Source of the DNA: Buxus sempervirens
Taxonomy: Eukaryota; Streptophyta; Magnoliopsida; Buxales; Buxaceae
Assembly: GCA_947561395.2 (NCBI GenBank)
Contig: OX387185.1
Location: 36,498,213 to 36,562,212, forward strand
Direction of reading: 5' to 3'
Length of the DNA stretch: 64,000 nucleotides
Shown here: piece after piece, positions 16,785 to 64,000 of the stretch
Position numbering within the stretch: position 1 is the first letter of the stretch
Layout of the letters: every line of letters starts with the position of its first letter
Notes under the pieces: generated by a model
What the model saw: the letters and a program-made list of their open reading frames with translations, nothing else
Database searches by the model: none
What the model was told of the DNA's origin: nothing
Position numbers and translations under genes: made by a program

Positions 16785-16788
16785 GAGA

Positions 16789-19510: not shown

Positions 19511-20799
19511 CTTTTTTTCTTTTTAACCAGGTGCAGCCTTTCAACAGCATCCAATGATGCTATTGAAACAATTCCCTTCAATTCTACAGCATAAAGAACA
19601 GCCGAAATGAATGATCTTAAAGCTGTTTTTTTTTAACTGTTTTTCTTCACTTAATGAGCTTTAAGAATAACCTGTTTTTTTTTTACATGTTCGGCCTTCC
19701 AACAGCAAGACCATTTCTCCTTTCAATTCTATATTTTAGCTATTGTTTCTTTTATTTAAAAAAAAAACCTTAACTTGAGCAACATGAGAATGAGTAAATA
19801 CCAAATGAAATCAACCACCTCCTCTATTAAAAAACTGAATAGGTTCGGCCATGCATCAAATAATCATGTTTTAGAAAGAAAAAAAAATCCAATTGGCATG
19901 GTTATAATTCCATTCATTAACAATTCAACACAAAGAAATTCAGAGATTCTAACCAAGAATCACTGTTATGTCTTGGCCATAACAGTGATTCAAATTTAAA
20001 ACTTTGGGCATAAGCATGCTTCGGCCATAAAAAAAATTATCATATCATTTTTTATCTATTGGATAATTAAACAACACTAAAAAAATCTGGCCATAACATA
20101 ACAGTGACATGTCTTATACTATTTGACAATCCAACAACATACAAATACTTGATTAAAAATAAACATACAAAAATAGAGGAAAAAAACCTGGTATAGGATT
20201 GATTTCCCGGAAGCTAATGAGCTCAACTCTAGATGTTCTCTCTTTCCTCTTGCACAACCTTCTTCCTCCTTTTTCTCACTTCCCTCTTTGCTTCTTTTTT
20301 AGAACTCTCTTCTTTTGATTTTTGTCTCCTTTTTTGCTCCCAACTTCAAGCCCTTTTATAGAGGTTTCCTACCCCTTCAAATTCTTAACCCCAAACCTTT
20401 CCTCTTCCTCTCTTAAACAAATTAACTCTTCCTCTTCCTCTTCTTAAGCAACTAAACTCTTCCTCTTCCTCTTCTTAAGCAACTAAACTCTTCCTCTTCT
20501 TAAGCAACTAAACTCTTCCCCTTCCTCTCTTAAACACCCTCATTCAATTAGGTTTGGTCAAAGTCCATTTTGTCCCAAATTTTTATTAGGCTTATGTATT
20601 TTTTAAGCTTTGTTTCAATATCTCAAGAGAATATGAGTTGGACCAATTCGTCCAACTCATTTCTCTTTGTTTATTTTTATTATTATTTTTTTAATCTTAA
20701 ACTTTTATTAACTTTGTTATTTATTTGCATAAGAAACCCCATTAGGAAACTTACTTATTTACTAAAACAACCCCACAAAATTTTAATTTGTCATTGGTT

Positions 20800-20837
20800 A
20801 CATGGCAGCTACCATGGCGTACACGTGGCTGCCATGT
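20800..20837. promoter_or_regulatory. Inverted repeat upstream of the TATA box in the E6 3' LTR
   Basis: ACATGGCAGC (20800-20809) and GCTGCCATGT (20828-20837) pair. In the 5' LTR the stem is 13 bp and perfect; here T20810 shortens it. It lies about 440 bases upstream of the TATA on the minus strand. Confidence 0.55.
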
Positions 20838-21087
20838 GGCATCCAATTTCGGTTTTGTAAAAATCCCCAAACTACCCTTTATTTATTTTATTCATAACTT
20901 AGCCGTTTGACATCCGATTTGAGCACGGTTTGGTGCATCAGAATCAGCTCAGAATTCTCTTTATTATGGGCTTGTTATTTCAAAAAGATGGGCCCACTAT
21001 AAAAACCTCGATTTACGTGCCCACATATATGCCGGTTTAAGATATGCTTCTTGGGCAATTTTATAGTGCAAAAATGGGGTGCTGACA

Positions 21088-21103
21088 GCTGCCCCTCTTT
21101 GTC
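21088..21103 (-). other. Polypurine tract of E6
   Basis: On the minus strand GACAAAGAGGGGCAGC directly precedes the 3' LTR start. It matches the tract of E1 and E14 in form. Confidence 0.85.
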
Positions 21104-28222: not shown

Positions 28223-31200
28223 TGTGCGCACCTCGCGCGCGGAAAAGTGGGTTATATGTCTTTTATGGAGTCGCCACTACCTGAAATGGTGCAGGTAGAC
28301 ACCTTGTTGACTTTTGGTCTGAACCAGTGATTCCGGATAAGTGACCCGATTACAACCCAGGGAAGTCCTTGAACACCCTAGGTTGCCCCATCGAAATGGG
28401 TTCCCTTAAATCAGTTGGATTGTATTTGGGTTTATTTATTATTATTTAATTTTTTTTATCTTTTATCTTTTATATATATTCTTTATTTTTTTATTTTATG
28501 ATCACATGTGTACAAATATTGAAGGAATGAAGGTTGCTATTCTACATCCTATACAAAATATAATACATATAAAAAATATCTAACATAAAGGAATTCAAAT
28601 CATGGAGCAATGTACTTGGTAACTTAAAAAATATATATATTTATTATTTATTTATCTTTTTATTATTTTTTTATTTTATTATTATTTTTTTTTATTTTAT
28701 CTTTCTCATATATACAAGGGATTAGAGGAATTAGCATTTTACATTATATATGAAGAAAAAAAAAGGTTTATTAAGATATTCTAATGAAAAAAAATTTCCA
28801 ATCATATTTTATGATAATTTATTTAAATAAAGCATGTGTTGAAAACAAAACTCAATCATTTTTTTTTATTGCTTTCCTTGTGCCTTTTTCTTATTCTTTT
28901 TTTTTTTTATGATAATTTCTTATGCCTTCATATATATATATAGATATATTTTGTTCTTATCTCTAAGGATTTGGATAAGAGAAGAAGTGTTATAAGAAAT
29001 TAATAAAAGTTACAAGAAAAAAATCTGTTTAAAAGAATTAATAAATTTAAAAAATTAAAAATTTTAAATATGTTAGTTAAGCCTATTATCTAAAGAATTA
29101 AGAAAAGAAAAAAAATTCTGGTTAGTAAAGTATATTAATTAAGCATATTATCTAAAGAATTAAGAATAAAAATCTGGTTAGTATTTGTTTAGTATGTGTT
29201 TTAATCATACAAGAAGAAAAAAAAAAAACAAAACAAATAAAGGCCTAGGGGTTGTTTTAAAAAAAAAAACATTTTAAAGAAAGGGTAAAAAAAAAATAGA
29301 ATAATTTCTGTTTAAACCCCTAACTTTTCAGCTTAACAAATTAACCACAAAAGTTCATCAAATTTTCAAAATTCCACCCCCAAAACCAATCGCTCAACAG
29401 AATTTTTTTTTTCTTCTTGACTTTCCCATCTTCCAATCTTTCTTCCTTATTGCACTCTAATTCTTATGAATTTACTTTCCAACTCTCAAACAAAAGACAA
29501 AACAAATTTAAGAACAGCCGTTGGTGGCTGTTGGACAGCCACCTGCGGCTGTTCAACTTCCTCTAACCAAGCACTTGTATCTTCTCTAACCAAGCACTTG
29601 CATCTTCTCTTTCAATTCCCCATCAATCCTACACTCTTTCATTCAATACTTCTCCTTTCATCTTCTCCAATACCTCTCTAATTCCTCCCAACTTTTAAAC
29701 AAAAGAAAAAAAATTTAAGAACAACCGTAGGTGGCTGTTGGACAGCCACCTGCGGCTGTTCAACTTCCTAACCAGCTGCTCCTTCACTTTCTCATCCCAC
29801 CTGCTCCTTCTTCTTTTTATTTCCTCCAATTCCCAACTTTCAAACCAAAAAAAAAAAAAAAAACCATTTAGGAACAGCCGCTGGTGGCTGTCCAACAGCC
29901 ACCTGCGGCTGTTCCTTTTTTTCTTTTTAACCAGGTGCAGCCTTTCAACAGCATCCAATGATGCTATTGAAACAATTCCCTTCAATTCTACAGCATAAAG
30001 AACAGCCGAAATGAATGATCTTAAAGCTGTTTTTTTTTAACTGTTTTTCTTCACTTAATGAGCTTTAAGAATAACCTGTTTTTTTTTTACATGTTCGGCC
30101 TTCCAACAGCAAGACCATTTCTCCTTTCAATTCTATATTTTAGCTATTGTTTCTTTTATTTAAAAAAAAAACCTTAACTTGAGCAACATGAGAATGAGTA
30201 AATACCAAATGAAATCAACCACCTCCTCTATTAAAAAACTGAATAGGTTCGGCCATGCATCAAATAATCATGTTTTAGAAAGAAAAAAAAATCCAATTGG
30301 CATGGTTATAATTCCATTCATTAACAATTCAACACAAAGAAATTCAGAGATTCTAACCAAGAATCACTGTTATGTCTTGGCCATAACAGTGATTCAAATT
30401 TAAAACTTTGGGCATAAGCATGCTTCGGCCATAAAAAAAATTATCATATCATTTTTTATCTATTGGATAATTAAACAACACTAAAAAAATCTGGCCATAA
30501 CATAACAGTGACATGTCTTATACTATTTGACAATCCAACAACATACAAATACTTGATTAAAAATAAACATACAAAAATAGAGGAAAAAAACCTGGTATAG
30601 GATTGATTTCCCGGAAGCTAATGAGCTCAACTCTAGATGTTCCCTCTTTCCTCTTGCACAACCTTCTTCCTCCTTTTTCTCACTTCCCTCTTTGCTTCTT
30701 TTTTAGAACTCTCTTCTTTTGATTTTTGTCTCCTTTTTTGCTCCCAACTTCAAGCCCTTTTATAGAGGTTTCCTACCCCTTCAAATTCTTAACCCCAAAC
30801 CTTTCCTCTTCCTCTCTTAAACAAATTAACTCTTCCTCTTCCTCTTCTTAAGCAACTAAACTCTTCCTCTTCCTCTTCTTAAGCAACTAAACTCTTCCCC
30901 TTCCTCACTTAAACAAATTAGCTCTTCCTCTTCTTAAGCAACTAAACTCTTCCCCTTCCTCTCTTAAACACCCTCATTCAATTAGGTTTGGTCAAAGTCC
31001 ATTTTGTCCCAAATTTTTATTAGGCTTATGTATTTTTTAAGCTTTGTTTCAATATCTCAAGAGAATATGAGTTGGACCAATTCGTCCAACTCATTTCTCT
31101 TTGTTTATTTTTATTATTATTTTTTTAATCTTAAACTTTTATTAACTTTGTTATTTATTTGCATAAGAAACCCCATTAGGAAACTTACTTATTTACTAAA

Positions 31201-31521
31201 ACAACCCCACAAAATTTTAATTTGTCATTGGTTACATGGCAGCCACCATGGCGTACACGTGGCTGCCATGTGGCATCCAATTTCGGTTTTGTAAAAATCC
31301 CCAAACTACCCTTTATTTATTTTATTCATAACTTAGCCGTTTGACATCCGATTTGAGCACGGTTTGGTGCATCAGAATCAGCTCAGAATTCTCTTTATTA
31401 TGGGCTTGTTATTTCAAAAAGATGGGCCCACTATAAAAACCTCGATTTACGTGCCCACATATATGCCGGTTTAAGATATGCTTCTTGGGCAATTTTATAG
31501 TGCAAAAATGGGGTGCTGACA
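28223..31521 (-). repeat. 5' LTR of E6
   Basis: It is 3299 bp with the same ends as the 3' LTR. Differences found by eye are C30643 versus T20239, C31244 versus T20810, an additional 31 bp in the pyrimidine-rich tandem block near 30900, and one A in the run near 29850. The TATA-like CTATAAAAG is at 30758-30766 (minus). Palindromic units lie at 29512-29554, 29719-29761 and 29872-29914, and an upstream 13-bp stem at 31234-31246 / 31259-31271. Confidence 0.92.
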
Positions 31522-31557
31522 GAGAGGTTCTGGAGGTTGCTTTAGTTGCGGCCGATT
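31522..31557 (+). pseudogene. E5 gag remnant right of E6 (zinc knuckle start)
   Basis: Starting with the second TSD copy, the frame continues G-S-GGCFSCGR, the first half of a CCHC knuckle. It is cut off by a deletion that joins it to the 3' LTR. Confidence 0.75.
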
Positions 31558-32090
31558 CCATTTGATGTGTTGTTAGTATTGTATTGAAATATGATTGGAT
31601 AATAATGTGGGTTTTGGATTTAAATTTGGAAATTGTCTTGGTTGCTTTAAGCGCACTAGTTATTTATCGATGCATAATTTGAACTGTTGTTAACTATTTT
31701 CTGCATGCATATGCTACTCGCTGAGATATTCGTATCTCACTCTGTTGTTTTTGTTTTGTTTTCAGATACTCGAGGTGAGGCGACTACTGGGGTAGATCCG
31801 ACTGAGACATATAGGGAGGAAGATTACTACTATATTCCATAGACTTGTAGGTTATTTTGAATTGGACTTTGGTTTATTTAAATGTTGGAAGTGTAATAAA
31901 ATAGTTCGAGGTTGAATCATTTGATTTTAATAAAGTTGAATATTGAGTTCTTAAATGAAAAATGTTTGTGCACTCTGATATGGTTTAGTTTAGGTGATTA
32001 TCTAGCGATCACAATTATTTAAGATCCTTACCTAACACTCCGTGAGACGTGTTATACCTTTATTGAACAACACGGATCCGGAGCGTTACA
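31558..32090 (+). repeat. Truncated 3' LTR of E5
   Basis: This matches 16252-16784 of the 5' LTR with few changes and ends GATCCGGAGCGTTACA before TSD TTGTG. The left junction falls in CCATT, present in both parents, so the deletion of pol and half of the LTR used microhomology. Confidence 0.85.
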
Positions 32091-43732: not shown

Positions 43733-44476
43733 TCTTTTAAGGTTTTCACTTCCAGCACTGTGTGCGCACCTAAACCTGGCCTTAAATCGCACACCGGGCG
43801 CACGTTGGGTTCGTGCGTACCTCGGGACTTTTCGGAGTCTCCACTGCCTGAGAGGTGCAGGCAGACACGGAGTTTGCCCTATCCGGGTTTAAGTCTGGTC
43901 TGCGGCTTTTCAGAGTTCTAGCTACGTCCTCGGTTACGTCCGGGGAAGCCCTAAGACACCCCGGCCCGCCCCGTCGGTTCGACGGGTTCCTCGGGTCTCC
44001 CTGGTTTTTGAGTCAGTTTCACCCTTCCTAGACCAGCATGCTGTTTATTGGGTCTGGCGGAGCCCTCTGAAGGTGTGGGCCCTTTTTTATTTATCTAAGT
44101 GAAATGGGTCGGACCCGGGTCCCGTTGGAAGACCCGTGGGTTGCCATGGTTGGGCCTTGGGCCCAATTGGGTTATTGGGTAACCCTTTTTGGTTATTTAA
44201 ATTTTATTTATTTACATTTTTTATTTGGCTCGATGGGCTTGGATTTGGCCCATTAGCCAAGGGTCAAAGGGCCTGGGCCTATTTATTGAAAACATGCCAG
44301 GTATAGGCCAGTCAAAGGTGGGCCCTTTAAGTGGGCTCAGGGTGCCTTGGTGGGCCCATTTAGGCCCACGGTCCAAAGATGGGCTTAAGATAGCCCAAAT
44401 TGCTTAAAGGACTGGTTCAGGTCGGATCAGGTTCAACCGGGCCGGAAAATTATGTTTTTTACATTATTTTTACATC

Positions 44477-44585
44477 TGCCCGTATTTGCTATACGGTCCA
44501 CCCTTGCCCGTGAACGAAATCCGGTTTGGCTTGCCCGTGAAGCAAACACGATCCTGACCGGACTGCTCTGAGTTTACGAGCGCAA
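44477..44585 (-). promoter_or_regulatory. Second palindrome array in E10, downstream of the TATA box
   Basis: Words GCCCGTATT, ATACGGTCC, GCCCGTGAA (twice) and TTACGAGC recur within about 110 bases. The same words form the upstream array at 45395-45610. Confidence 0.45.
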
Positions 44586-45341
44586 CCTATTCTGCACTTT
44601 TGCTGCCAATTCTGCTTGGGATCGGTTCCATGGCCTTCTCAAGTGTTCTGGTAACTTCAGTTGGTTTTTTTAGCTCCTCCAAATGCTATATTTCCTTCAT
44701 TTGGCCTGAAAGGCCATTTTTCTTCTTCCTTTTGTTCTTCTTGAAGCAACAAGACCCCTTCTCGATTGTTGGTAGCCAAATTCCAGAATGGGAAAAGGGG
44801 AGTTTACAGGGAATTAGGGAGCCTCAAAGGTGTCAAATTCTACCTTTCCAAAGGACCAAAAAAAGATTACTAAATTAGTTACTTAAGATGTCCTTAAGGC
44901 ATTTTATTTCCCCTTTTTTTTTATGATGACCATCTCCTAGAGATTATCCTTTCATGACTTTCAAAAAACAGCAGTTGGATTAGTGGTAACAAGAACAAAA
45001 TATAGAAAAGAAATCAGAAGAGATATTGAAATTGATAATGTTATGTTATAAAGCTTAACATACTTACAATATGATTATTTGCTGGTTATGGTTCCTCCGA
45101 GTAAATTGGGCAGCGCTTCCGCGTCCTCCGTGATTTCTTAGAAGGGTTTTGGCAGAGGTTGGGTAGGTTCTTGATGCTCAAAGGATGAAAAAAGAAGAGT
45201 TTAGATGAAATTTGGGCAGTTTAAGGGTACTTTGGTCATTAGGGATTTTGGGTATTGGGAGAGACAGAGTCTGGACAAATCTTGGACGTGGAAATGCTGG
45301 GGAGAAGGAGGAGAGGGCCAAAGGAGAAGGCTTGTTGAAAT

Positions 45342-45360
45342 GGGGGGGGGGGGGGGGGGG
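45342..45360. repeat. Run of 19 G
   Basis: Uninterrupted G run beside the E10 TATA box. Length may be an assembly estimate. Confidence 0.95.
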
Positions 45361-45394
45361 CCTCTCTATTTATAGGCAAAAAGGGGCATGCCCA

Positions 45395-45610
45395 TATTTG
45401 AAGTACGGGCGTGCCTTGCCTGTACTTCAAGTACGGGCGTGCTTTGTCCGTAATTCAAATACGGGCGAAAAACGCACATTTGTAAATCTCGCGAATCAGC
45501 CGTACGGGACGCGTATCCCGTCGTACGGTGACGTGTGTCTTCTTCCATAAGCTTGCCCGTATTTCAAATACGGGCATGCCTTGCCCGTAATTGAAATACG
45601 GTCCAGCACG
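45395..45610 (-). promoter_or_regulatory. Palindrome array upstream of the E10 TATA box
   Basis: At least eight TACGGGC / GCCCGTA-type words alternate, including AAGTACGGGCGTGC, GTCCGTAATT, AATACGGGCG, GTACGGGACGCGTATCCCGT and GCCCGTATTTCAAATACGGGC, the last two themselves palindromic. The array ends 20 bases from the TATA box. Confidence 0.65.
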
Positions 45611-46844
45611 TTTTTAAAATGTTTGGATTTCAAACCTTTATTCAATTTGGTTTTTTGCAAGATTTCATTCGATTTTTCTGATTATTTTATTAAAAAGCGA
45701 GATTCCTTTTATTAAAATATTAATAAACACATTTATTTTATTGGTTTATATCATTTTTTGCTGCCTTTTTGCCACATGGGCAGATTTTCTGAAACTTCAA
45801 CTGCTCATAACTTCTTCGTCCGGTGTCCGATTTCAGCAAACTTAGTGTCGTTGGAACCGGCTCGGAACCACCTATCCATTGGGATCAAGTTTGGCAGCTG
45901 AATTGGGGTCGAGCAAAAAGTCAACTTTTCGCTCCCCAAAAGTTTGACCAACTCATAATTTTCTCATTTGGACTCCAATTCCAGCAAATTCAGTTGCGTT
46001 GGAACCGTGTCGAAATGCTCTTTTCAATGAGATGAAGTTTGATGGCCAAATTTACTTGAATCAAAAATTCAATTTTTTGACCCCCTCAGGGTTTGACTTT
46101 TTAATTGAAATTTTCATTTTCTTCATTTTTTGGGGTGCAAAAATGAGGTGCTAACACACTGTCAACACCTCATTTTTGTACCTCAAAAAATGAAAAAAAA
46201 TAAAAAGGTCAAACCCTAAGGGGGCAGGCAAAAGTTGACCTTTTGATTTGGTGCAAATAAACCACCATAATTCTTCTCATTGAATAGGAAATTCCAACAT
46301 GATTCTAACGCAACTGAGTTTGCTCAAGGAGTTCGAATGAAGAAGTTATGAGCTGGTCAAACCTAGGGGAGCAAAAATTGACTTTCTGCTCAGACCCGAA
46401 CCAGTTGCTCAATTTGATCCTGGCAGATAGAGGATCCTGACACGATTCCGACGCAATTGAGTTTGCCGGAATTAGAGTCCCAAAGAAGAAAATATAAGCA
46501 AAACTGGATTGCGGGACGCAGTTTCGCGCTTCTACTAAAAAACTTAATTTGCTACCATACTCGAGCTCAGTGGATCAAGAATCTTGACCTGATTCCGACG
46601 CCACTAAGTTTACTAAAATCGGACATTAGGTGAGAAAGTTATGACCAGTCAAAGTTTAGAAAAGCTGCTCACATGGCAAGAAAGCAAAAAAGGACAAAGC
46701 AAATAAAAATCTTGAATAAAATAATAATTTTTCTTAGAAATATCTCTTTTTTACATTTAAAATAAATAAAAAATAAAAGGGAAATTCGGATAAGATTTCA
46801 AAAATTCGTCAAAATGGGATGGGATTTGAAATCCTCCCATTTAA

Positions 46845-47034
46845 AACGTGCGTGTCCGCACTGTATGTGCGGACGTGTCGCGTCCGCACATATAGTGTGG
46901 ATCAATCCTTATCCAAAAGGGGCAGCTAGCAGATATTTTTGATTGCGCACGAGCTAATTTCGTCCGCACTTTAAGTGCGGATTAGGCCAATCCGCAATGT
47001 ATGTGCGGATCCGGCCTGTTTTGTCTATATAAAG
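46845..47034 (+). promoter_or_regulatory. E11 LTR promoter: GTGCGGA array plus TATA box
   Basis: GTCCGCACTG, ATGTGCGGAC, CGTCCGCAC, CGTCCGCACTTT, AAGTGCGGAT, ATCCGCAAT and ATGTGCGGAT precede TCTATATAAAG. The pairs TCCGCACTGTATGTGCGGA and TCCGCACTTTAAGTGCGGA are self-complementary apart from a base or two at the centre. Confidence 0.65.
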
Positions 47035-47576: not shown

Positions 47577-49973
47577 TGTAGACACCCCAAATTGCACTAC
47601 AATAATGAAAATGAATTTCAAATGTTTTGTTTGAGCTTTAACAAGTGTCAAAAACTCAAAAATATTCAGAAAATGTGCTGACCACACATATAATGCGGTT
47701 TTTGGTCATTTGGTTTTGACCACACTGTATGTGCGGTTGCGATCGCACTGGATGTGCAGTCGGCCTCATGCTTCTTGTGTGCACGCAAGTGGGCTGCCAC
47801 GTGGCTTCTAGAAGCCTAACATCGGCAACAATCATTGGCGCGTAACTGAATTTGGACCGCATTCAACATGCGGTTTGTGAAGGGTTTTGCTGCGACCGCA
47901 GATAGAGTGCGGTTTGGTCTAAACCTCACTGTGTATGCGGTTGCAGTCATTTTGCACATTTGCGAAAAGGCTCGAGATCTGAGCCTTATTTACGCATCTT
48001 ACCTCTCTCTGGGAGACCTGATCTCCCTATTTTGCCCTCCGAAACTTGTAGTAGTACTCCAATTCATGTCTTTGGCTTAAATTGGAATAATCTAGAAGAG
48101 TTCTCTGGCCTACCCTTGGGTCTTTTATACCTTTGGCTGTGCCTATAAATAAAGGAGCTCTCCTCTTACAAATTGCTACTACTTTGAAGTTTGAAGGCTC
48201 TAGAAGAAGAAGCTAACCTCTGCCGAATTGCTGTCTCAAGATTTCCTAAGCTACCAAGGTAATCTCCCTTCTCTCTTCTTTTTATTTATATTTTAGCACT
48301 CCCTCCTTCTACCTTTTTGTAATGTAAGGCCATTGTGTGTGCTTGTAAACCCAAACTACTTCTAAAGTACCTAAGAATCCTCTCTAGCCGTAAAACGTGA
48401 AGAGAGAGCTTGGGGAAAAGGAAGGTGGAATGGAACCTTAAGTCTAGAACCATCTTGTGATTGCATTCTGGATTTGAGTGTGATTGTTACTTAAATTTGG
48501 AGAGGATACAAGGATCCATGCTCTCTATAGCATTGGATCCCAATCTTCTCATAGAAATTTGGTTTCCTACACAATCACACACGTTTCACTTCTTTTTGTC
48601 AAGAATAGGCTTAGATCTTGGATTCACCATGCTCAATATGGTAAATCTGAGATCCATAGCCTTAGAGTGAACTCTCAGGACTTCATGAGCTCATTCAAGT
48701 GATTTTAAGTCAGTTTAGCCGAATCCATTGCACACACTCACTGGTTCCGCTCTTTTTTTTTATCAAAACTTCACAAATCTGGACAGAACCTGCACCTTGT
48801 CTTAGAACACTCATAACTCCATCATCCGGATGAATTTTTGAGTGATTCTAAAAACATGTGATAAGTGGATATGTTTAGTATGTGTCTGTAAAATTTTAGC
48901 AATTTATATGGAATGGATTTTAAATACCATTTGATCAAAGTCGACAGATCAGTTCAGATCAGATTGTTGAACTTGTCACTTTGATTGAGCACCATTTGTT
49001 CATTTTAACTCCGATTCAAGTGATTTTAATCTCTGTGTTTTTCTTTGTGAGTCTATTTTCAAATCCAATTGGTTTTGAGAGTTTTTACTTTGATTTGTGT
49101 CTTGTGCATTTGATTGACTCAGAGCTACTCAGTAGCAGAATTCAGAGTCAATCTGTGATCCTGTAGGCATGTTCGAGAGGTCACACAAGTCACAAATGGA
49201 TGGAGTTTTGTGTGAGGCCTATTTCATTTGAAAGATGGCATCACATACTTCATTCATGCAAGTTTTCAAGGATTTACATGGAGCCAATCTTCACAAATAG
49301 GGTTTAAAATTTGGTTACTCGCCGCTTTTGCAGATTTAAAGCAGTAGACTTGAATGAGTGTTTCTCCTTTGTTTTTAATCGGATTGATTTGAATTGTTTA
49401 CTGATTCTTCTTCTTCATATTAGCTTTCAAATGGCTTTGGTTTTGTTTGATTTGAGTTTCAATTGAAGGATTTATGATTGATCAAAGTTTTCAAGCTAAA
49501 GTAGCTTCATCTCTTAATTGTTTTTTTTTTTTTCAGATTTGTTTTAGTTTGATTTTCTTCAATCTTTACTTTGATTTTTACTTAACCATGAAATCCCAGA
49601 GGTGATATATCGATAGAGAGAGTCCAGATTTTATTGGACTACTCCTATAGAGCAATCACACATGTGTTTGTCGCTTTTCAAGCACTTTTGATGGATTTAT
49701 TTTAACAAGTAATTTTTAAGCATAAACAACATATGGCAACCATCTTGTATGGATGATTAGTTGTGCCTAACACCTTCCCCTACTCATAACCTAATCCCTT
49801 TACCCAATCTCTGAACAATACCATAAATTAGAGCTACTTTGGCTCTATTTTTACATCTTTATGATCCCTTTGGTGTCCATTCACACCTTAACTTGAATGG
49901 TGGCGACTCTGACCTTTTTGTAAACTCCGTGTGATGATGAGGAAGTCATCTAGGTGATTTTCCATGTCTCACA
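47577..49973 (+). mobile_element. E12: solo LTR of the E1/E14 family inside E11
   Basis: It starts TGTAGACACCCCAAATTGCA and ends CATGTCTCACA, 2397 bp. Flanks are GGATA (47572-47576) and TGATA (49974-49978), a TSD with one mismatch. It has TATA CTATAAATAAAG (48143-48154), donor CCAAG|GTAAT (GT at 48259), one CTAGCCGTAAAACGTGAAG (48384) and TGGCGACTC (49901-49909). Confidence 0.9.
47690..47945 (+). promoter_or_regulatory. Palindrome array of E12 (word TGCGGT / ACCGCA)
   Basis: ATAATGCGGTT, GTGCGGTTGCGATCGCAC, GACCGCATT, CATGCGGTT, CGACCGCAGA, AGTGCGGTT and TATGCGGTTG are grouped in 255 bases, about 200 bases before the TATA box. E1 and E12 are the same LTR family but use different words. Confidence 0.55.
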
Positions 49974-50637
49974 TGATATGTCCCCCTTCTAACATCCGTT
50001 GTACCCCTGATATCTCTCCCTCTTTCCCTTCCTTTAATTTGTGCTATTCACTACTCTCTTGCATGCATGTTTATTTTATGAAGTTCTTGTCCTTTTGGTT
50101 ATTTCATATGAAGAGCATGGGATGTATTATCACATATGGTTCCCTTGCTTTGCATCCATTGGTCTTGAGTATGTTTTAGAATGCACATAAGAGCATCATT
50201 TTCACAAATATATATATCTTCATGTAGGCATGAACAGCATGATAGGGAAGCATATATGAATATGTTTCATCACTCTTTTTGTCACTATGAGTACAAGTAA
50301 GTGGATTCATCAATTGGTGAGATTTAGGCCTTTCGGGCCTTCTCTTTCTTTCCCTCATGAGGAAAGGAGGGAGACCTTTTTGGCACCAAGAGTAGGGACA
50401 TTTAGAGTCCCTATTCCAGACCTTCAGTGTTGACCCTAGGAGGTTGGGGAAGCCCCAAGCTTCTCCCCTCCTTCCCTGTTTGGAACTTGGTAAAAATGGC
50501 ATTTTTAGCAAAAATCGAGCATCTGAACCACTGTAGGTCTGCTCGAAGACCCACAGCAATTCGCAAAACCCCCTAGAAGATAGGCGACCTGAACCCCTCT
50601 GCCGTTTTGGCGTTTTTGGGTTTCCAGGTCGAGTTCG

Positions 50638-50710
50638 CATACACAGTGCGGACCAGACCCGACCGCACTGTATGTACAGACAGGTTTAGTCCACACAGTA
50701 TATACGGATA
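50638..50710 (+). promoter_or_regulatory. Second array in E11, downstream of the TATA box
   Basis: CACAGTGCGGACC, GACCGCACTGTATGTAC and CCACACAGTATATACGG repeat the word used in the upstream array of E11. E10 shows the same two-array arrangement. Confidence 0.4.
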
Positions 50711-53460: not shown

Positions 53461-53472
53461 TGATTGTGTCTC

Positions 53473-55258
53473 TGTGAGACATGGAAAATCAATTTAATGA
53501 CTTTCTAATCATCACAAGGGATTGGTTAAAAACAAAGAGTCGCCACCATTCTGTTTAGGAGTGAATGGACACCAAAATCTCAAATAAGCACAAAAAGGCA
53601 AATTTAGGGTAAAAATAACCCTCTAAAAAAACAAAACAACCAAAGATGGGTAAGGGGATTAGGTTATGAACAGGGAAAGGTGTTAGGCACCCCTATTCAT
53701 CCACACAAGGTGGTTGCCAAGTATTGTTCATGTTAAAAATAAAGAAGGCTTGCTACAAAAATCATAAAAAATCACAAAAAGACAAAAGTGCATGGTTTTT
53801 TCATACGAATAGCCTGATTGATCCAGAACTTTCAAATATGATCATACCATTCCTACGGTTTCATGAAATAAAATTGAGATAAAATCAAATAAAACCAATC
53901 TAAAGTGAAAACTTCAAAATTTTGGCTTCAAGTTAAATTTGGAAATCTAGAAAAATATGATTTTTATAAAATACTACAGAATTGAACTTAAACAGTCCAG
54001 GACATAGATATAGCCCAAATTTCATATTAAATCAAGAAATCAAAACCAAAAATACCCACGTTGATGAAGAATATCAAAAGGAGAGAACTTAGACCGTAGG
54101 GTCTTCTTTCAAAAGTGAAAAATGACTCAAAAACCACATCATGAAACCCTAGAAGTTACTTTCAAGCTTCTGAATCCAGATCTATCATATAGATCATGAT
54201 AGATCCAGGATTTTAGCCTATTATCACAAAAATCATGAAAACAGTATTGTAGGTGCAAAAGTGGTGAAAATCTCAATTTTTGGAGAAAAAAAGGATTTCA
54301 TGCTATAAACATCATGGATTCATATGATTCATTCAGATTCAATCACAAGATCATTAAAATATGAATAGGATATTCAAAGCAACCACATCTCACTAATTAG
54401 AGCACATGGGGGTCTACCCTACGGATCCACTTGTTCTCTTTTTCCCTAGCTCTCTCTTCACGTTTTACGGCTAGAGAGGATTCTTGAGGTACTTGGAGAT
54501 AGGTTTGGTGGTACAAACACAATCAAAGGCCTTATTCTATAAAAAAAAGAGAAAAAACAGATTATGGGGTTCTATTCTAGGGATCCACCTGTTCCCCTTT
54601 CCCCTAGTTCTCTCTTCACGTTTTACGGCTAGAGAGTATTCTTGAGGTACTTGGAGGAAGGTTTAGGAACACAAGTACAAGATGGCCTTATTCTACAACA
54701 ATGGAGAAGATCCTATTACTTCTAGAATTGAATACAGAAAATAAAAGGGAAAAGGGACTTACCTGGATTGAGCAAGCAGAGTAGCAGGGATTCCCTTCTT
54801 CACTTGGAGCTCCTTAGACTTCAAAATTTCTTGGCCCTTTGCTTAAGGATCTCACCTCTATTTATAGGCAAACCCAGGGATAAGGCTGGTCCAGAGGGAT
54901 ATACCATGATCCACCAGATTGGATTAAAAAATTAGGGATAATGCCCATCCATGGCCAAATAAGATAATTCGAATGAATAAAAGAGATATTGGAATGAAGA
55001 TAAGGCTTAGAAATTGAGCAAGGATAAAATTCGCAAAATCTCCTGCGCCCGTAAATATATTGCGGGGAAGTTGTGTCCGCATTTTTTTTACGGGCGCTGC
55101 GTGCCCATATACAAAATTCGGGCGTGACTAGACCACAGGTACAATACGGGCACTGCTTAAATGATTAAATTTTGTGCATTTTTGACCTTTTTCAAATCCC
55201 AATTAATATTTTCAATTAATTATTTTCTCATTTTGTAGTGCAATTTGGGGTGTCTACA
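53473..55258 (-). repeat. 3' LTR of E14
   Basis: Minus-strand start TGTAGACACCCCAAATTGCA (55258) and end CATGTCTCACA (53473), 1786 bp, clearly homologous to 5715-7506. TATA CTATAAATAG at 54858-54867, donor CCAG|GTAAGT (GT at 54762), two CTAGCCGTAAAACGTGAAG modules, GAGTCGCCA at 53537-53545. Confidence 0.9.
54858..55160 (-). promoter_or_regulatory. E14 LTR promoter: palindrome array and TATA box
   Basis: CGCCCGTAAA, TGCGGGG, GTCCGCAT, TTACGGGC, GCCCATAT, TTCGGGC and ATACGGGC lie at 55040-55160; the TATA CTATAAATAG is about 180 bases downstream on the minus strand. Some words have decayed compared with E1. Confidence 0.55.
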
Positions 55259-55604: not shown

Positions 55605-55710
55605 TTGCCTGTATTTGTATTGCAGGCAGGTCATGCCTGTAATTTGAATACGGCCGCAATTGACCGCATTACCTTTGCGGGCTTCTGCTGCTCGTGTTGC
55701 TTTTACGGAT
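55605..55710 (+). promoter_or_regulatory. Palindrome array upstream of the E14 PMD gene
   Basis: GCCTGTATT, TGCAGGC, GCCTGTAATT, ATACGGCC, GACCGCATT, TGCGGGC and TTACGGA form a decayed version of the E1 cluster at 5265-5375. A CTCCGG-rich, 5' UTR-like stretch follows (55795-55905). Confidence 0.45.
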
Positions 55711-57253
55711 TTTAGGGTCCTTCTTAACCGCGACCGCGACTTTTCTTTCATTCTTGCTCTCGTTTCGCCCTAAATTGCTTGCGTCCGCACCTTATTCTCC
55801 GGTCTTTGATCCTCTCCCTCTGTCCGCACTTATCTTCCGGTGGCGACTTCGTCTTCTCCGAAGATTCTCACATTCTCCGGTGATTCTCACATTCTCTGGC
55901 GACGACTTGCTCATTCAGCCTTGTCTTCTCTTGTCGGAACAGTGGTGTCTTCAACGACTGTCGGCTTCTCTTTACGACAGTGGCCTTGCCGAGACTGTTG
56001 CCTTGATCATTTCTGGGTGAAGCTTCGACCAGTGTATCTCTTCACTTCCTTTCTCTCCAAGCATCCCTCAGACATCCTTTGTGAGTGAGCTCGAAGCTTC
56101 CATTTTCACTTTGCAAATTTCTCATTCGACCCACACAGGTATGCTGAACAGTTGCTTCATTTTTCTAGCATTTTTCATGATTGAATGCTTCACCTAAGTG
56201 CATGATAATTGGTCTGTTCATGGTTAATTCTTGAATGGTCGAAATCCCCAAATGTTGGCTTGTTCATTGAGCTGTTGATTCTGATTTTTAAGAACTAAAT
56301 TGCTCTATGCATAGGATATTCCATGCTTACTATTCTGCTTGCTCTTGATTGATATGAATCCCCCATTTTGAAGCTTGCTTAGACTGATTTTAATGCTTTG
56401 TCTCTACAAGAATGAATTACCAATTCATGTTCAATCCATGCCCAATTTCCTACATTTTTCAGTTATTGGACTACTATGCTGACTTGTTGTGAAATGTTGA
56501 TTTGGAGCAATCATGTTCTGATTGATGCTCTGCTTTTCTTGCCAATGCATTTTTCGTGATTTTGATTTTTCCTACCAATGCATGCTTTCACAATTATAGC
56601 AGACTTTTGTATGTTCAATTCCTGCTTCCGAACTGTTGCTTTAGGTCTTCTTGAAACTTTGCTTTGATCATGGGATGCTAGATGATTGCCCACCTATGCA
56701 ACTTAGAAAATTGATTTTGACTTGCTTGGTTCTGCACTGGAGGGGCTGCTAGGCAAACGATTTTGACTCCAAACCAAGCCGATCCTCAATCCAATTGACA
56801 ACCATGATAGATTTCTGAATCTGTAATTGAATAAGCCTAAACTTGATGAGTATTTCTGTTACCACAATCCCAACACAAATAGGCTTGAATTTCCGTCCTG
56901 AAACCAAGTAAACTCAAATGATTAAGTATCTTTAGAAAATACAAAGGAGAAAATTAAAACCAATCTTTAACACACATTTTTTTGTCATAAAAAGAGAATA
57001 TACAAGAAGCATGCACTTCTTATATAATTTCTCTATATACTTTCTTGGTTAAAGCAAAGACAAATAAAATATCTCAAGACAGAAAATAAACTCCTTCAGT
57101 TGACTCCTGATTTGGTCGGGAGTTTCTGACGCATTTTCTTCCATTCTCCATTTTTTATTTTTCTTGCAAATCAATTAAACTTGGTTAAAATGAAAATCAA
57201 GCAATAAAAATTTTAACAAGAATAATTAAACATCTCCCTGATTTGAACCGCAG
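55711..57253 (+). other. Leader and probable 5' UTR intron of the E14 PMD gene
   Basis: Donor CACAG|GTATGC (GT at 56139) and acceptor ACCGCAG ending at 57253, just before the ATG, bound a 1.1-kb AT-rich intron like the one in E1. Frames in the leader (55694-56088) are low-complexity and not conserved as protein. Confidence 0.45.
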
Positions 57254-60101
57254 ATGGCCCGCATTCGATCAGCTTCTAAGGATCCTGCTGATGAGCCCTC
57301 TTCCTCCAGGGTTTGGAGGGATCCCACTGATGTGGCGTCTTCTTTGGGAGCAGCGAGGGATTCTGATTCTGATATCCCTGATCTTCCTTCTGGGGATTCG
57401 CGTGAGGCGACCCCAGAGGTATACTCTAACCCTTCTGAATTCAAATTTCTTTCGAAATTCAACACTCTGATCCTTTTCTTCTTTCCAATTATTTCCTTAG
57501 CCGGCAGTTGAGGCTTCGGGCAGAGATAGAGGCCGTAGTGAGCGCCGAGGTGGCGGCAGAGACAGAGGCCGTGATGAGGGCCGTAGAGGAGGCCATGGCA
57601 GGGATGAGGCTAGGACTAGGGTTGAGGTCCCTGAGGTGATTGCTACCCAGATTAGGGATACTTACCTTTTTCATGGCTTGAGGACTCATCCGTCAGCTTG
57701 TATTAGGGTAGACATCCCTTTGGAGTATCCCTTGTCTCATTATCGAGGGAGCTGGGCCAGCTTTATTAGATTTCTTGGAGACTGCAGTTCAGCCTTTCGC
57801 CGGGAGCTAGGTTTGTATGGTTTTGGCCTCTTCATCACCATTCCGGATGTGCGCCTGGATCAAGCCCTTATTGCAGCGATGCTCGAGAGGTTCTTCCCAG
57901 AGACTTTGAGCTTCCATTTTCTAGATGTTGAGAGTGGGATCCGGCCGTCCGACTTCACGCTTATCACCGGGATTAGGATGACTGGAGATATTATTCCCGA
58001 GATGGTGATGCCAGATGTTGCGGAGATCGCTGCCTATCTTGGATATATAGTGTTGCCTCCGGAGGCCTGGGATAGAGGGAGGCCTAGATTGTCTCTGACT
58101 TGGTTAAGAGAGACCTTCCGGAGGAGGCAGCTTGGCCAGCTTGCTGCCAGTCATACAGTTTTCCCGTTTGCCTTCCGTTTCATTTTTCTGTACATGATGG
58201 GCTCCTACTTCTTCCCAGAGGACACGACTTCTGTTAGTCCCCATTTTTTGGGTTTATTAGGAGATTTGCAGCGAGCGATGAGGTATGCCTGGGGCCCGCT
58301 TATTTTTGGCACTATTCTGGCTGGTCTGCGCCGATCAGTTAGCGGCATCTCTACCTCTCGAGGAGCTGGAGTTGGGTGCAGATTCTTCTGGCCTTTCTTG
58401 CAGGTGAAACACCTATTACCTTTTTCTTTCTTTCTCTTCTTCTCCTTTTTTATTCTTCTGACACTTTTTCCTCTTTCTGCAGTTCTTTGCTAGGGTTTAT
58501 ATTCCCTATTTCCGCCCTACCTCTACGATGCCGGAGGATACGTATCCTGTGGCTCGTAGATTGTGCCATGTGGAGCACGACTCTGAAAATAATCGTCCTA
58601 GGTCTGCCCGGGCTCATCTGGACAGGTTGTATCGGTTTGAGGTAAGCTTCTTTAATTCTTCCTTTTTTCCCTTTCCTGAATCACATGTCTAATATTCTTC
58701 TTTCTGTTTTTCAGCTATTCGTCCCCCGGATGGAGGACATTCATGAGGTGCTGGCCCTGCATGCGGCTAGAGATGATGCCTTTGCCCCTGACCAGAGACG
58801 TCAACGCTACCAGTTCTTCATTGGTCAGATGGGCAGCATCTGGTACTGCGGTGAGTGCTTCTTTTATCAGCACATTGGAGTGCCTCGGATTCCTGCCATC
58901 CCACCAGATACTACTCCTTCTTTTCCTCCTATGCCTATTGATCCTACTCAGTTCCTAGATTGTATTGAGGCAGAGACATTGTTGGAGGAGGGTGACTATG
59001 ATGCCTGGTTCAGGCAGGCTTCAGTTGGGTGCCTCATGCCACCTATGCCTGTTCGTGGCGGAGTCACGAAGATAGGAGGGGTAGTGATCAGGGCCTATGA
59101 TACCACGGTATGCCTTTCCTTTTTGATCTTCTTTTCTCATATTCTATTTTGACTTGGTATTTTCTGACACCCTTTTTTCTATTTCAGGAGGCTCACTTGG
59201 CAGAAATTTGATCTCGGTACGCTAATATAGAGCGCTAGCGGGATGCTGCTTTTGCCGAGCGGGACGCCCTCTTTATTACCATTGCAGACCTCCGGGGACA
59301 GCTTGCCAGGGCACAGAGCCAGGCAGGTCCTTCTGGTGCTCAGGACCAGGCGGGTCCTTCTCATACCCAGGTTAATTCTTTACCTCTTTCCATTCCTATT
59401 CTTATATCTGTTTATCCTATTCTGACTAAAATTTCTTTTCTTATTTTCAAGATGACACAGTCGGCCCTTCTTCACCTGCTTCATCACTGCCTATGCACCT
59501 TCGTGGCAAGGTTTTTTCTGTGGCATGAGTAGAGTTTGTGACTTCTCCTGGATCGGTAGAGGTGTCTGTAGCAGAGCCCGAGATTGAGGCTGAGATTGCA
59601 CCTACTGCTATCCCTACTACTGAGGACGTGCCAGAAACCGCTCCTGATGCGCCTGCTGAGATAGATATGGAGTTGGCCGGGGATGCCGCTGTGGTGGAGC
59701 CTACTGATGAGGCTATGGTGATAGAGGAGGCTGCTACTGAGCCTGTAGAGCCTGGACCTGATACTGATGCTCCTGGGGTATCTGTTCCTGCTGATCCTGC
59801 CACGGAGCCTGTTGTGAATGAGGAGGTGCCTGCTGCTGCCGATCCTGTGACTGAGCTTGTCCCTATGGATTCTGATACCGAGTCGGGGGGATATGTAGAT
59901 ACCTCGGGGTACATTCCTCCTGATCATCCCACTGCTGGTCTTGTGCCTTTATATATGTGGTATGATATTCAGTCTATTTTGATCAGGATGACCCGTAGTA
60001 CAGCTCGTTGCCTTGTGGAGCATGTTTTCAAGCGCCGGAGGCGTTCAAGCAATGGTCGAGGAAGAGGACGTGGTCGTGGCCGTAGTGGTGCACCTAGATA
60101 G
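57254..60101 (+). pseudogene. PMD gene of E14, six exons, broken
   Basis: Exons by homology with E1 are 57254-57418, 57501-58403, 58483-58641, 58715-59107, 59188-59370 and 59451-60101. Exons 1-4 are open and include the PMD pattern D-x-ALIAAMLERFFPET and GIRMTGDI. Exon 5 has stops TGA (59209) and TAG (59236). The last intron ends AA at 59449-59450 where E1 has AG, and exon 6 has TGA (59526) where E1 has CGG. The rest of exon 6 is open and keeps the acidic region and the Arg-Gly tail. A product from exons 1-4 alone would still hold the complete PMD. The gene is on the strand opposite to the retrotransposon. Confidence 0.85.
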
Positions 60102-60324
60102 ATAGATTAGATTAGGATATCTCATGTACTTGTATTTTGACAAAATGATGTACACCTTCATATATATAAAAGAAGTTTGATTTATTTTTTCTTCATATAT
60201 GCTCTTTTCTTTTTCATTTCTAGCTTTTTCTTACATGATATATGTTAAAGCAAGGACGAGTGAAACTTGGGAAAGCATAAAAATTAAAATTCCCCATTTT
60301 TTGCATTTTTTTCAAAGAAACCGT
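60102..60324 (+). other. Intergenic end of the E14 PMD gene
   Basis: A probable 3' UTR follows, with AT-rich sequence and TATATATAAAAG (60160-60171). E1 has a matching stretch at 691-893 (minus). Confidence 0.45.
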
Positions 60325-60480
60325 ATTTATATTACGAGCAAGCTGTGCCCGTAATCTTAATGTGGGCGCACTCTGCCCGTAAATTGTTTACGGTCATAGT
60401 GTGTCCGCACTCTCTATACGGGCACACCATGCTCGTATTATTAATGCGTATTTTATTGCCTTTTCGAATTGTCTATATAA
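60325..60480 (+). promoter_or_regulatory. Promoter of the E14 DUF7745-like gene: array and TATA box
   Basis: TTACGAGC, GCCCGTAAT, GTGGGCGC, GCCCGTAAA, TTACGGTC, GTCCGCAC, ATACGGGC and GCTCGTATT precede TCTATATAAACTC (60471-60483), with the ATG at 60573. This matches the E1 arrangement at 528-690. Confidence 0.6.
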
Positions 60481-60572
60481 ACTCATGGGGAACGTCATTG
60501 TGACGTTTTTATTAGTTTGAAAACTCCCTGAGCTCTCCGTTTTTTGCTTTCCTTGGCTTCTTTGGTGCTTCC

Positions 60573-62272
60573 ATGGCTTTCCTCGCCTTGTTCTCTTCGG
60601 CCGATGAATCTCCTCCTACAAGACAACCTGTTAGATCAAAACCTCCTAATCTCACCAGGTACAATGTTGTGGATTCCTTCTATGATAGGTGGGTTAACTC
60701 TATGACCCTCGATGAGGAAATTCGCTGGGATTCTATCCACTTAGGCCACATCCTACACATACCTAAAATTCCCTTTAAGTAGGAAATATTGAAGCTTCGA
60801 TTGGGCATTGGGTTCCTGAATTGAATCTCTTCCGTTTTGATGACAAAGGGATGACTCCTACTATTGAAGAAATTGAAACCATCCTTGGCCTAAGGTTTTC
60901 TGACAAAGTTGTGAACCCGCCCCTAAAGCCTAGCTACAAAAAGGAGGCATCCACCTTCTTGGGTATAAGAAAGAAAGACTTAGGAAATTCTGATACACTG
61001 TTGACTTTATCCAAGACCTTTCTGACTGAAAAACTTCTAAGGGGTGAGGACAAGGATGCCCGGTTTAATGCTTTGACTCTGATAGTGGTCAACCAGTTGC
61101 TCTTTCCACAGGGTGATGACCAGGTTGACTTGGCTCTCATATCAGTTGTCTGCTAGGTTAGGGAACGTGAGAGATTAGCCCCTATGATCTTGGCAGAGAT
61201 ATACCAAGCCCTGATTGACTGCTATTTCAGAAAGAAGAAATGCTTCCGTGCATGCGCCCCTATCCTACAGGTAAAAAGATAAATATATATATATATTTTC
61301 TCTCTTTTTTTTTTCTTTCTTCTTTCTTTTTCTCTTTTTTTTTTTTGAAATAAAATAAAATACTCCCTTTTTCTGCAGCTTAGGTTACTTGACCACCTGA
61401 GTCAGGTTGAAGAGATAACTCGCCGCTTCTTTCTAAGATTGAAAGTTCCTGTTTTGATGAGTAACAGGGGGTGTCCTAATATCCAAGGTGGCAAGCAGGG
61501 ATGGTTCACTTTCTTGGGTACTCTCCAGGATGATCAGGTGAGATGGCCTGGCACTTATCAGCCCAATCCAGAGACAGTGATCAGCTTCACAGATAGGAAC
61601 TTTCTGGTTCTAGCAGGCTTGAAATCTGCTTTCCTTTATCTTCCTCTAAGGGTTCTTCGGCAGTTTGGACCGACCTAAGGGATCACGATCCCTACTGGAT
61701 ATGAGAACCTCCTTGGGCCACTTACACTAGCCACCATGGGGCTAAATGCTCGTTTAATGAATGAGTGGTCCTATGTTCATTTTCTGCGGGGTCTAGTCTT
61801 TTCTGAGTCCCATGTGAAGGACTATCATTTCTGGATCAAAGAGCAGGTGCAGAGTCATGCCCTAGTACCAGAGGATCCTCCTGCAGTTCTTCCCCCTACT
61901 TATGAAGACATCCTGGAATCTGAAAAGGCCACCCACAAGCAGCTTCAACAAATATGGGTACGAGAAGCCCAAGAACTCAGGATAAAAGGTATTGATCTGG
62001 AGAGGCAACTTGAAGAGCAGAGGTCTTGCTGCATTGTCATGGAGAAGAAACTTGAGGAACAAATACAGGCTTGTCGCTTTGAAGTCCAAGCGATGCAGAA
62101 GAAATATCAGGATTCCCTGGCTGACATTAGGGCATTGAAGATTAAGCAATCTCTTTCAGATGAGGTTATCTCCTTTTTGAGCGATCCAGATGCAGAGGGA
62201 GCTTCTGGAATCATTGCAACTCTGGCGGCTCGGATTAGGGAGCTTGAGGAGCAGTTAGGGAATAGGGATTAG
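60573..62272 (+). pseudogene. DUF7745-like gene of E14, two exons, broken
   Basis: Exon 1 is 60573-61270 (donor CAG|GTAAAA), exon 2 is 61379-62272 (acceptor CTGCAG). DUF7745-like features are FRFDDKGMTPTIEEIETILG, LFPQGDDQVDLALISVV, MILAEIYQALIDCYF and CFRACAPILQ. After exon 2 begins, a stretch with FLYLPLRVLRQFGPT is followed by a coiled coil (about 61910-62130; ERQLEEQRSC, EKKLEEQIQACR) and a short tail IRELEEQLGNRD. Defects: TAG at 60780 (E1 has TGG), a one-base deletion at about 60786, TAG at 61154 and TAA at 61676. No full product is possible. Start, promoter and first half agree with E1. Confidence 0.8.
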
Positions 62273-63278: not shown

Positions 63279-64000
63279 TCAAGGAAAGTATCTCTTTACT
63301 GCATCAGAGTTAATTGGCTCAGGAAAATCTTTCCCATCCATTTCTGTTAAGATGAGAGCACCCCCTGATAGGACCTTCTTGACAACATAAGGCCCTTCCC
63401 AATTTGGTTTGAATTTTCCACGAGGATCTTCAAAAAAGGGTAAGATTTTCTTTAATAATAAATTTCCTTATTGGAAAGTTCTGGACTTCACCTTTTTATT
63501 GTAAGCCCGGGCCATTCTTTTCTGATACAATTGGCCATGACAGAGCGCTTTTAACCGTTTTTCTTCTATCAAATTGAGTTGATCATGTCTTGACTGTATC
63601 CATTCAGCTTCTTCTAATTCAGCTTCTATTAGCACTCTTAGTGAAGGTATTTCCACTTCCACTGGTAAAACTGCTTCCATCCCATAGACCAAGGAGTACG
63701 GGGTTGTCCCAGTAGAAGTCCGGATCGAGGTTCTGTAAGCATGTAGAGCAAGTGGCAGCATTTCATGCCAATCTTTGAAACTCACTACCATCTTCTGAAT
63801 GATCTTCTTTATATTCTTATTCGCTGCTTTCACTACCCCATTCATCTTTGGTCTGTACGGAGCTGACTTGTGGTGGGTGATCTGAAACTGCTCATACATC
63901 TTTCTCATATCTTTGTTCTTAATATTCCAAGCATTGTCTGATACTATGGCACTTGGCAAACCATAGCGACAAATGATGTTATGCTTTAATAACTTAAGAA
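63279..64000 (-). pseudogene. E14 pol, integrase C-terminal part (partial and mutated)
   Basis: The minus strand is open from the window edge to a TAA at 63468-63470, and after that stop the homologous frame continues to TGA at 63279-63281. The core has GLPSAIVSDNAWNIKNK (second catalytic Asp), then RPKMNGVVKAANKN, where Tat/Ogre integrases have V-E-A-A-N-K-N; the catalytic Glu is therefore Lys (AAA). The C-terminal part has the lineage-typical WEGPYVVKKVLSGGALIL and DAVKRYF. This motif set places E1 and E14 in the Tat/Ogre group. The premature TAA and the Glu-to-Lys change make this integrase inactive. Confidence 0.88.

Follow-up and report, generated by a model that had tools for sequence, protein, structure and literature searches.

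The window examined here, a 64,000-nucleotide stretch of the Buxus sempervirens genome (G000:C6:36498213-36562212; genome total 676.5 Mb), carries at its two ends inverse copies of one retrotransposon family, recognized by blastn within the window and designated E1 (window start) and E14 (window end). In E14, two genes, one for a PMD protein and one for a DUF7745 protein, lie at 57254–62272 on the (+) strand, between the integrase end of pol on the opposite, element-sense strand (63279–64000, −; rve match of 23.1 bits, below the cut-off of 32.6) and the edge of the 3′ long terminal repeat (LTR) at 55258. The LTR, taken at the extent common to E1 (53472–55258, −; from blastn against E1 and the LTR edge), contains a sense TATA box at 54858–54866; a sense TATA is likewise present in the LTR of E1, which starts at 5714 and is immediately preceded by a polypurine tract. 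E1 repeats the gene arrangement of E14 in inverse orientation. These positions bear out the claim of an earlier note on this DNA, that two intron-bearing antisense genes sit between the pol end and the 3′ LTR. Its statement that both copies contain both genes holds for the PMD gene, present in full in E1 and E14, and for the start of the E1 DUF7745 gene (1–437, −; identified from its frame, Pfam and comparison with E14), but the window edge truncates the latter after 145 codons and the remainder lies outside.

The E1/E14 family is a high-copy, probably Tat-type Ty3/gypsy element, of whose pol E14 shows only the integrase end within the window. A locus of a sister family elsewhere in the genome, L035, with an integrase 88% identical to that of the window family, has RT_RNaseH, RVT_3 and rve in this order, as does the pol adjoining a further locus, L033; we take RVT_3 to be the archaeal-type RNase H (aRH) domain of the Tat lineage.

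The PMD gene comprises six exons and five introns and spans 57254–60101 (+) in E14. Exon 1 (57254–57418) is placed by alignment with E1, common GT–AG ends and phase 0; exon 2 (57501–58403) holds the bulk of the PMD domain (PF10536; 55.1 bits against a cut-off of 34.9 on the open frame 57501–58493) and has a ratio of nonsynonymous to synonymous change (ω, dN/dS) of 0.11 between E1 and E14. Exons 3 (58483–58641) and 4 (58715–59107) rest on the E1 alignment and E1–E14 ω, and exon 5 (59188–59370), with two in-frame stops in E14, on comparison with E1. Exon 6 (59453–60101; E1–E14 ω of 0.51) encodes an acidic stretch and a basic, RG-rich end, and is decayed in E14, where indels, further stops and an altered acceptor add to the exon 5 stops in breaking the gene. 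The E1 gene (894–3821, −; exons 3821–3657, 3573–2659, 2568–2410, 2328–1936, 1857–1675 and 1595–894) is an open frame of 838 codons, the first 605 residues of which match Pfam PMD with 85.3 bits (PF10536, cut-off 34.9), with no match to Pfam DUF7745. All five E1 introns are in phase 0, have GT–AG ends and measure 78–90 bases. Across the aligned copies, GT–AG is kept in 31 of 32 cells for introns 1–4, and the intron 5 acceptor is CAG in six of eight copies, the exceptions being L017 and E14; the exon phase and splice sites that the earlier note had described as shared are thus common to both copies, except for the changed exon 6 acceptor of E14. Searches with PMD exon 2 found no relatives in viral contigs and no match among solved structures.

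The DUF7745 gene is formed of two exons, 60573–61270 and 61379–62272 (+), separated by one intron (61271–61378, +). It too is broken in E14, by one frameshift and several stops: a stop and frameshift fall near 60780–60788 and a TAG at 61154 in exon 1, and an in-frame TAA at 61676 in exon 2, which encodes a coiled-coil-like end (read by eye). With the breaks masked as X, the E14 protein matches DUF7745 (PF24924) with 88.1 bits (cut-off 26); pieces taken singly give 31.1 and 38.4 bits, the latter for one piece of E14 exon 1, and exon 1 of another copy, L023, gives 71.3 bits. The polypyrimidine-rich segment 61271–61378 varies widely in length between copies yet keeps its GT and AG in seven of seven aligned copies, which marks it as an intron rather than coding sequence. 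Many of the at least 150 E1-like copies listed are, however, open across the intron place (frames of 575 to 672 codons), so that intron retention may be possible. All 150 of the matches listed for the 5′ part of the E1-type protein are 99–100% identical to it, indicating a subfamily that is either young or strongly conserved.

The two genes differ in what can be said of their promoters. Approximately 95 bases 5′ of the DUF7745 ATG lies a 13-base TATA block (60472–60484, +) that is identical in eight of eight aligned copies, whereas no PMD promoter was located; the earlier proposal that each gene has its own promoter therefore stands for DUF7745 and not, so far, for PMD. The stretch 5′ of PMD (55801–57100) is variable between copies (identity 0.35–0.58) and an AG directly precedes the PMD ATG in eight of eight copies, a combination that would fit a 5′-UTR intron in the PMD gene, which we regard as possible.

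The association of the two genes was surveyed across the B. sempervirens genome, as were the families and arrays described below. The DUF7745 exon is present in at least 150 copies, and 20 loci were sampled from a random draw of 40 among the 149 other matches. Every one of the 20 shows integrase sequence on the other strand; in 19 it sits where expected, and in L024 it is displaced. PMD sequence precedes DUF7745 in the same orientation in 16 of them: all six exons in eight, five exons in one, and parts or displaced pieces in seven, which could belong to another copy where insertions are nested. The other four (L015, L022, L023 and L028) have no PMD within 10 kb; L022 and L028 are also without the first DUF7745 exon within 10 kb, and in L023 the DUF7745 gene starts ∼0.7 kb from the LTR, as a deletion would leave it. 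From the opposite side, 64 of 120 listed matches to E1 PMD exon 2 have a listed DUF7745 match in the same orientation 3017 to 3175 bases downstream, a lower bound given that at least 120 PMD exon 2 and at least 150 DUF7745 matches were compared, where ∼1 such neighbor within 20 kb is expected by chance. The pairing of PMD and DUF7745 is a family trait, far above chance, and most sampled copies of the window family carry sequence of both genes, which answers the co-occurrence question raised by the earlier note in the affirmative for this family.

Both genes are under purifying selection, with the tail of PMD looser than the rest. Between E1 and E14, ω is 0.10–0.20 for PMD exons 1–5, 0.51 for exon 6 and 0.10 for the visible part of DUF7745. 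Over E1, E14 and the sampled loci where the exons are present (with L035 added for DUF7745), the median ω is 0.149 for PMD exons 1–5 (103 pairs, every pair < 0.5), 0.477 for exon 6 (102 pairs), and 0.187 and 0.213 for the DUF7745 exons (190 and 231 pairs, ∼97% of them < 0.5; pairs with undefined dS dropped); the values are medians of non-independent pairs, given without a significance test. The integrase, for comparison, gives 0.103 in frame and 1.1–1.4 in two shifted frames, and in a six-frame test of four exons of the antisense genes the gene frame gave 0.139–0.218 and four of the other frames 0.83–1.76. The medians in both genes are well below 1, so the prospect of near-neutral dN/dS, which had been named as fatal to the idea of a maintained pair, did not materialize in the window family. 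The same values bear on two alternatives. That the genes are captured passengers without function would agree with the many broken copies and with the absence of PMD from some (L015 and L023), but it is contradicted by ω across the copies, with purifying selection on both genes and with conservation of the TATA block and of the arrays described below, and we give it hardly any credence. That the antisense RNA is the useful product, acting through double-stranded RNA in control of the sense RNA with the proteins incidental, has precedents in the antisense promoters and RNA roles proposed for such open reading frames (ORFs) (PMC7264820) and in the phased small interfering RNAs from PMD genes in tea (PMC10673657); against coding-frame ω of 0.14–0.22 and the retention of splice sites, we consider it very unlikely.

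The earlier note had named PMD and DUF7745-like as two proteins; on closer comparison the two turn out to be related. The masked E14 DUF7745 protein matches PMD with 45.4 bits over residues overlapping its DUF7745 match, and the DUF7745 proteins L034 (73.3 bits), L035 exon 1 (43.1), L023 exon 1 (44.7) and P0003 (42.6) also pass the PMD cut-off, so that the cut-off is exceeded by five proteins, each complete for exon 1 or longer. Shorter pieces stay below it: the exon 1 fragments of E1 and E14 give 23.3 and 17.6 bits, and the second exon piece of L035 has no PMD match, with 20.2 bits for DUF7745. Furthermore, the DUF7745 and PMD genes have in common a phase-0 intron right after one aligned Leu–Gln, and the PMD gene adjoining a Mutator-like element (MULE) transposase has an intron at the homologous Leu–Gln too. 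From the scores above the PMD cut-off and the homologous intron place, we conclude, on comparison of the sequences, that the DUF7745 proteins form a divergent subfamily of PMD. P0003 is one of seven proteins (P0001–P0007, six from Colocasia and one from Solanum) returned by a protein-collection search; against solved structures it gave two chance-level matches only.

In a tree of 15 sequences, the DUF7745 proteins form one group (support 0.99) and two other retrotransposon PMD types another (0.95), with the window PMD apart, among weak supports of 0.88–0.90. The two proteins of the pair share ∼23% identity over 169 residues and fall into different tree groups, so the pair is not a recent duplicate, and recent tandem duplication is ruled out as its origin. 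Among the sequences compared, the window PMD is closest to the PMD beside the MULE transposase (34% over 182 residues), a kinship that would suit a further alternative, that the PMD-type proteins are decoys of host PMD silencing proteins (MAIN/MAIL type, interactors of PP7L) and do not bind element DNA. Transposons are silenced by MAIN and MAIL1, which interact with one another and with PP7L (PMC7156037, PMC5418596), and their role as silencing factors makes a decoy function of the element PMD conceivable. The weak tree placement (0.88–0.90), however, comes from a comparison set in which a MULE-side PMD exon was the sole stand-in for host MAIN/MAIL (PMD-C) sequences, and decoys would leave the arrays unexplained; as an account of both proteins we judge it unlikely. 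In L037 an intron-split PMD lies next to a MULE transposase encoded on the other strand, and PMD frames as long as that of L037 occur in L001–L005.

The non-coding sequence around the two genes contains arrays of short dyads. The motif TACGGGC-N7-GCCCGTA has 38 matches in the window (up to three mismatches, both strands, last spacer base fixed as T) against 0.22 expected. In E14 they form an array in the U3 region of the LTR (55047–55151), a degenerate array between the LTR and PMD (55607–55696) and an array 5′ of DUF7745 (60319–60437, with palindromes at 60333, 60361, 60389 and 60417); in E1 the same motif scan places them in U3 (5817–5934, inside the LTR edge at 5714), 5′ of PMD (5260–5363) and 5′ of DUF7745 (559–690). 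Nine elements (E1, E14, L011, L012, L013, L016, L017, L026 and L029) scanned for two dyad forms gave 144 matches, with 25 in the LTR, 54 5′ of PMD and 65 between the genes; in elements where the LTR edge was not found, such as L011, L012 and L013, any LTR match is included in the figure for 5′ of PMD. The same scan gave no match in the PMD genes with their introns (24.6 kb), in DUF7745 (14.4 kb) or in the sequence past it (22.3 kb). The intergenic array sits just before the DUF7745 TATA box. Half-sites alternate at 14-base steps, with occasional one-base slips, and of the periods from 8 to 23 over the 20 sampled loci only 14 is prominent (54 versus ≤3). Exact TACGGGC-type triplets number 8502 genome-wide, and the reversed control none.

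Conservation within the intergenic array is higher in the half-sites (0.872) than in the spacers (0.722; permutation p = 0.0005), and departures are rarest at the CG core of the half-site, with 12 and 13 among 224 arms versus 22–41 at other positions. One-arm departures from the dyad number 143, and of the changes in both arms 6 are compensated and 12 uncompensated; RNA hairpins are therefore disfavored as the reason for the dyads.

Related arrays and genes occur in other families of the genome, of which one copy each was examined. L034 has DUF7745 in sense orientation before gag, as a single open frame. Its array has the half-site of the window family, stops shortly ahead of a TATA box and lies ∼3 kb away from the DUF7745 gene. 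L035 has an antisense DUF7745 gene with its intron as in the window family, and arrays in which the half-site is TGCGGTT and the 14-base phasing is kept, one of them between a PMD remnant and DUF7745. Its PMD is reduced to the end of exon 5 and exon 6 beside the LTR; at L035 2854–3651 the LTR edge is followed by these remains in a 265-codon open frame from which the PMD domain is gone. Exact triplets of TGCGGTT number 926 genome-wide and those of a third variant, TGCGGAC, 170, with none in the controls. Phased arrays elsewhere in the window (46854–47016, 47894–47928 and 50633–50667) have half-sites of the TGCGGAC and TGCGGTT types, the second in a stretch related to the LTR side of L035, and LTR-like sequences at 45352–46157 and 43761–44737 are 87% and 80% identical to the L034 family, with an array of the L034 kind at 45404–45589.

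PMD genes without DUF7745 are found at further loci: L036 has a single antisense PMD gene, 970 codons long, next to an integrase, and L033 and L038 have two tandem PMD genes antisense to a 1201-codon pol (reverse transcriptase, two RNase H-type domains and integrase). The two PMDs of the L033 family are mutual nearest relatives among the sequences compared (29% identity). L033 3173–9439 and L038 271–3876 represent a second, probably Tat-type family, and since they carry two tandem PMDs, two-gene antisense cassettes of PMD-type proteins exist in at least two families; same-strand PMD pairs at ∼3.4 kb spacing occur at least 12 times among the matches listed. The idea that the PMD–DUF7745 pair is kept together thus holds within the window family (16 of 20 loci and 64 of 120 matches) but the pair is not obligatory: L035 keeps DUF7745 with just the tail of PMD, L034 has a sense DUF7745, L036 has one PMD and L033 two. 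No array was found at the PMD-only loci L033 and L036 in the stretches scanned, which may exclude their LTRs. Apart from these families, near-identical direct repeats (98–99%) at window positions 16252–21088 and 28223–32090, 10.4 and 15.3 kb apart, are probably parts of another recent element.

We propose that the interval between pol and the 3′ LTR may be a small regulatory unit, consisting of the antisense PMD and DUF7745 genes and the arrays, in which an element-encoded regulator would bind the arrays and counter silencing, and we place the probability of this at roughly 0.45. The antisense genes would be transcribed from their own promoters and then spliced, and DUF7745 at least, perhaps dimerizing by way of its coiled-coil-like end, would bind the arrays. 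Bound there, it would regulate both its own gene and that of PMD, and would shield the LTR promoters of related copies from host silencing so that they stay active, in the manner of the VANC proteins of VANDAL MULE transposons; PMD may act jointly with DUF7745 or on the PMD proteins with which the host silences. Several features point to a DNA-binding protein that coevolves with the element: the dyads themselves, the position of the arrays near promoters, the lack of matches in coding sequence, and a half-site that changes from one related family to another. Arrays accompany three of the five DUF7745 families or loci and neither PMD-only locus, which makes DUF7745, rather than PMD, the candidate binder. 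A more specific formulation, a VANC-like system of sequence-specific anti-silencing and self-regulation in a plant LTR retrotransposon, with antisense proteins of the PMD superfamily and cognate 14-base-phased operators in which protein and half-site co-diverge between families, is possible, and we advance it only tentatively.

The principal competitor is that a host transcription factor reads the arrays, exploited by the element for its LTR and antisense promoters, with the PMD-type proteins acting elsewhere (for instance on chromatin, or in nuclear entry of the integration complex). The arrays lie upstream of TATA boxes, where host factors could use them, and the L034 array is ∼3 kb away from its DUF7745 gene. 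On the other hand, related families within one genome have unlike half-sites, an observation better suited to an element protein that coevolves with its site than to a single host factor serving them all, and no array accompanies the two PMD-only loci, though their LTRs may lie outside; a host factor as reader seems to us rather unlikely.

Several observations weigh against a regulatory unit built on DUF7745 and the arrays. The DUF7745 loci L031 and L032 showed no CG-bearing array in ∼4 kb each (∼1.5 kb of flank per side), so the association of arrays with DUF7745, seen in three families and absent from two DUF7745 and two PMD-only loci, comes from a small sample. Half-site conservation (0.872) is close to that of the flanking intergenic stretch (0.82–0.85). 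CpG retention in the arrays (0.787 and 0.887, compared with 0.794 in other non-coding sequence) is not clearly higher than elsewhere, and protection of CpG in the arrays is accordingly unsupported. Furthermore, 72 of the 143 one-arm departures would keep a G–U pair in RNA, so that a role of the dyads in RNA is conceivable. In the six-frame test, frame 1 of the opposite strand was also low (0.275–0.428); because its third positions coincide with those of the coding frame, we read this as a mirror of the latter, which blurs the control. The predicted structures of P0001 and P0003 are of low confidence (mean pLDDT 40.3 and 34.6). Finally, DUF1985, the domain carried by VANC proteins (PMC5735166, PMC10398659), was not matched at E up to 10 by window PMD exon 2 or L023 DUF7745 exon 1. 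The MULE-side PMD exon does match PMD and DUF1985 over overlapping residues, with DUF1985 below its cut-off, and an exon at L039 1348–1932 likewise matches both on overlapping residues, both below cut-off; a kinship of PMD-type proteins with DUF1985 is a lead only.

Elements of this arrangement have been described before. PMD is reported in 57% of Ogre elements (Neumann 2019, PMC6317226), and Gypsy consensus sequences from ten species also contain it (PMC9289625). Gypsy-only clades of PMD-A have been described, and an anti-silencing role has been suggested for captured PMDs (Ikeda 2017, PMC5418596). Retand has antisense TRP28 ORFs between pol and the 3′ LTR (Vicient 2025, PMC11963269), and the antisense ORFs (aORFs) of such elements have been reviewed (Vicient and Casacuberta 2020, PMC7264820). 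The word DUF7745 was found in no paper of the literature searched, most subscription journals lying outside it, and neither the PMD–DUF7745 pair nor the dyad arrays were found there. PMD in Ogre and antisense ORFs being already known, what appears new is the 14-base-phased dyad arrays in U3, 5′ of PMD and before the DUF7745 TATA box. In the sources cited, the role of antisense ORFs in Tat-lineage elements is an open question (PMC7264820, PMC11963269), and two selected PMD-type genes, arrays and a sister-family half-site turn it into a concrete and cheap one, whether the protein binds the array of its own element.

The Ogre/Tat PMD ORFs resemble the present case in that a Ty3/gypsy element encodes a PMD protein, whereas the window family has both PMD and DUF7745, antisense and intron-bearing, with arrays at three places. 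The TRP28 ORFs of Retand are likewise antisense coding sequences between pol and the 3′ LTR, conserved and thought to be regulatory, and differ in protein family, the window genes being PMD-type. The window proteins, scanned for TRP28 (PF04195), gave no match to this Retand marker, and the main text of PMC11963269 mentions no PMD, 'mobile domain', DUF or intron. MAIN and MAIL1, the host PMD proteins known as silencing factors (PMC5418596, PMC7156037), have in common with the window genes the PMD domain and a link to transposon silencing, and differ in being single host genes that are not element-borne. VANC is element-borne, binds short tandem-repeat motifs in non-coding regions and removes silencing marks (PMC5735166, PMC10398659); VANDAL and the window family are alike in combining an element-borne protein gene with short, tandem, non-coding motifs that diverge between related families. 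VANDAL, however, is a DNA transposon whose DUF1985 protein has been shown by experiment to bind and demethylate, whereas the window family is a retrotransposon with PMD-type proteins and 14-base-phased dyads, known from sequence alone. If real, the regulatory unit proposed here would bring the PMDs of mobile elements, the PMD proteins that serve host silencing and the anti-silencing of VANC into one framework.

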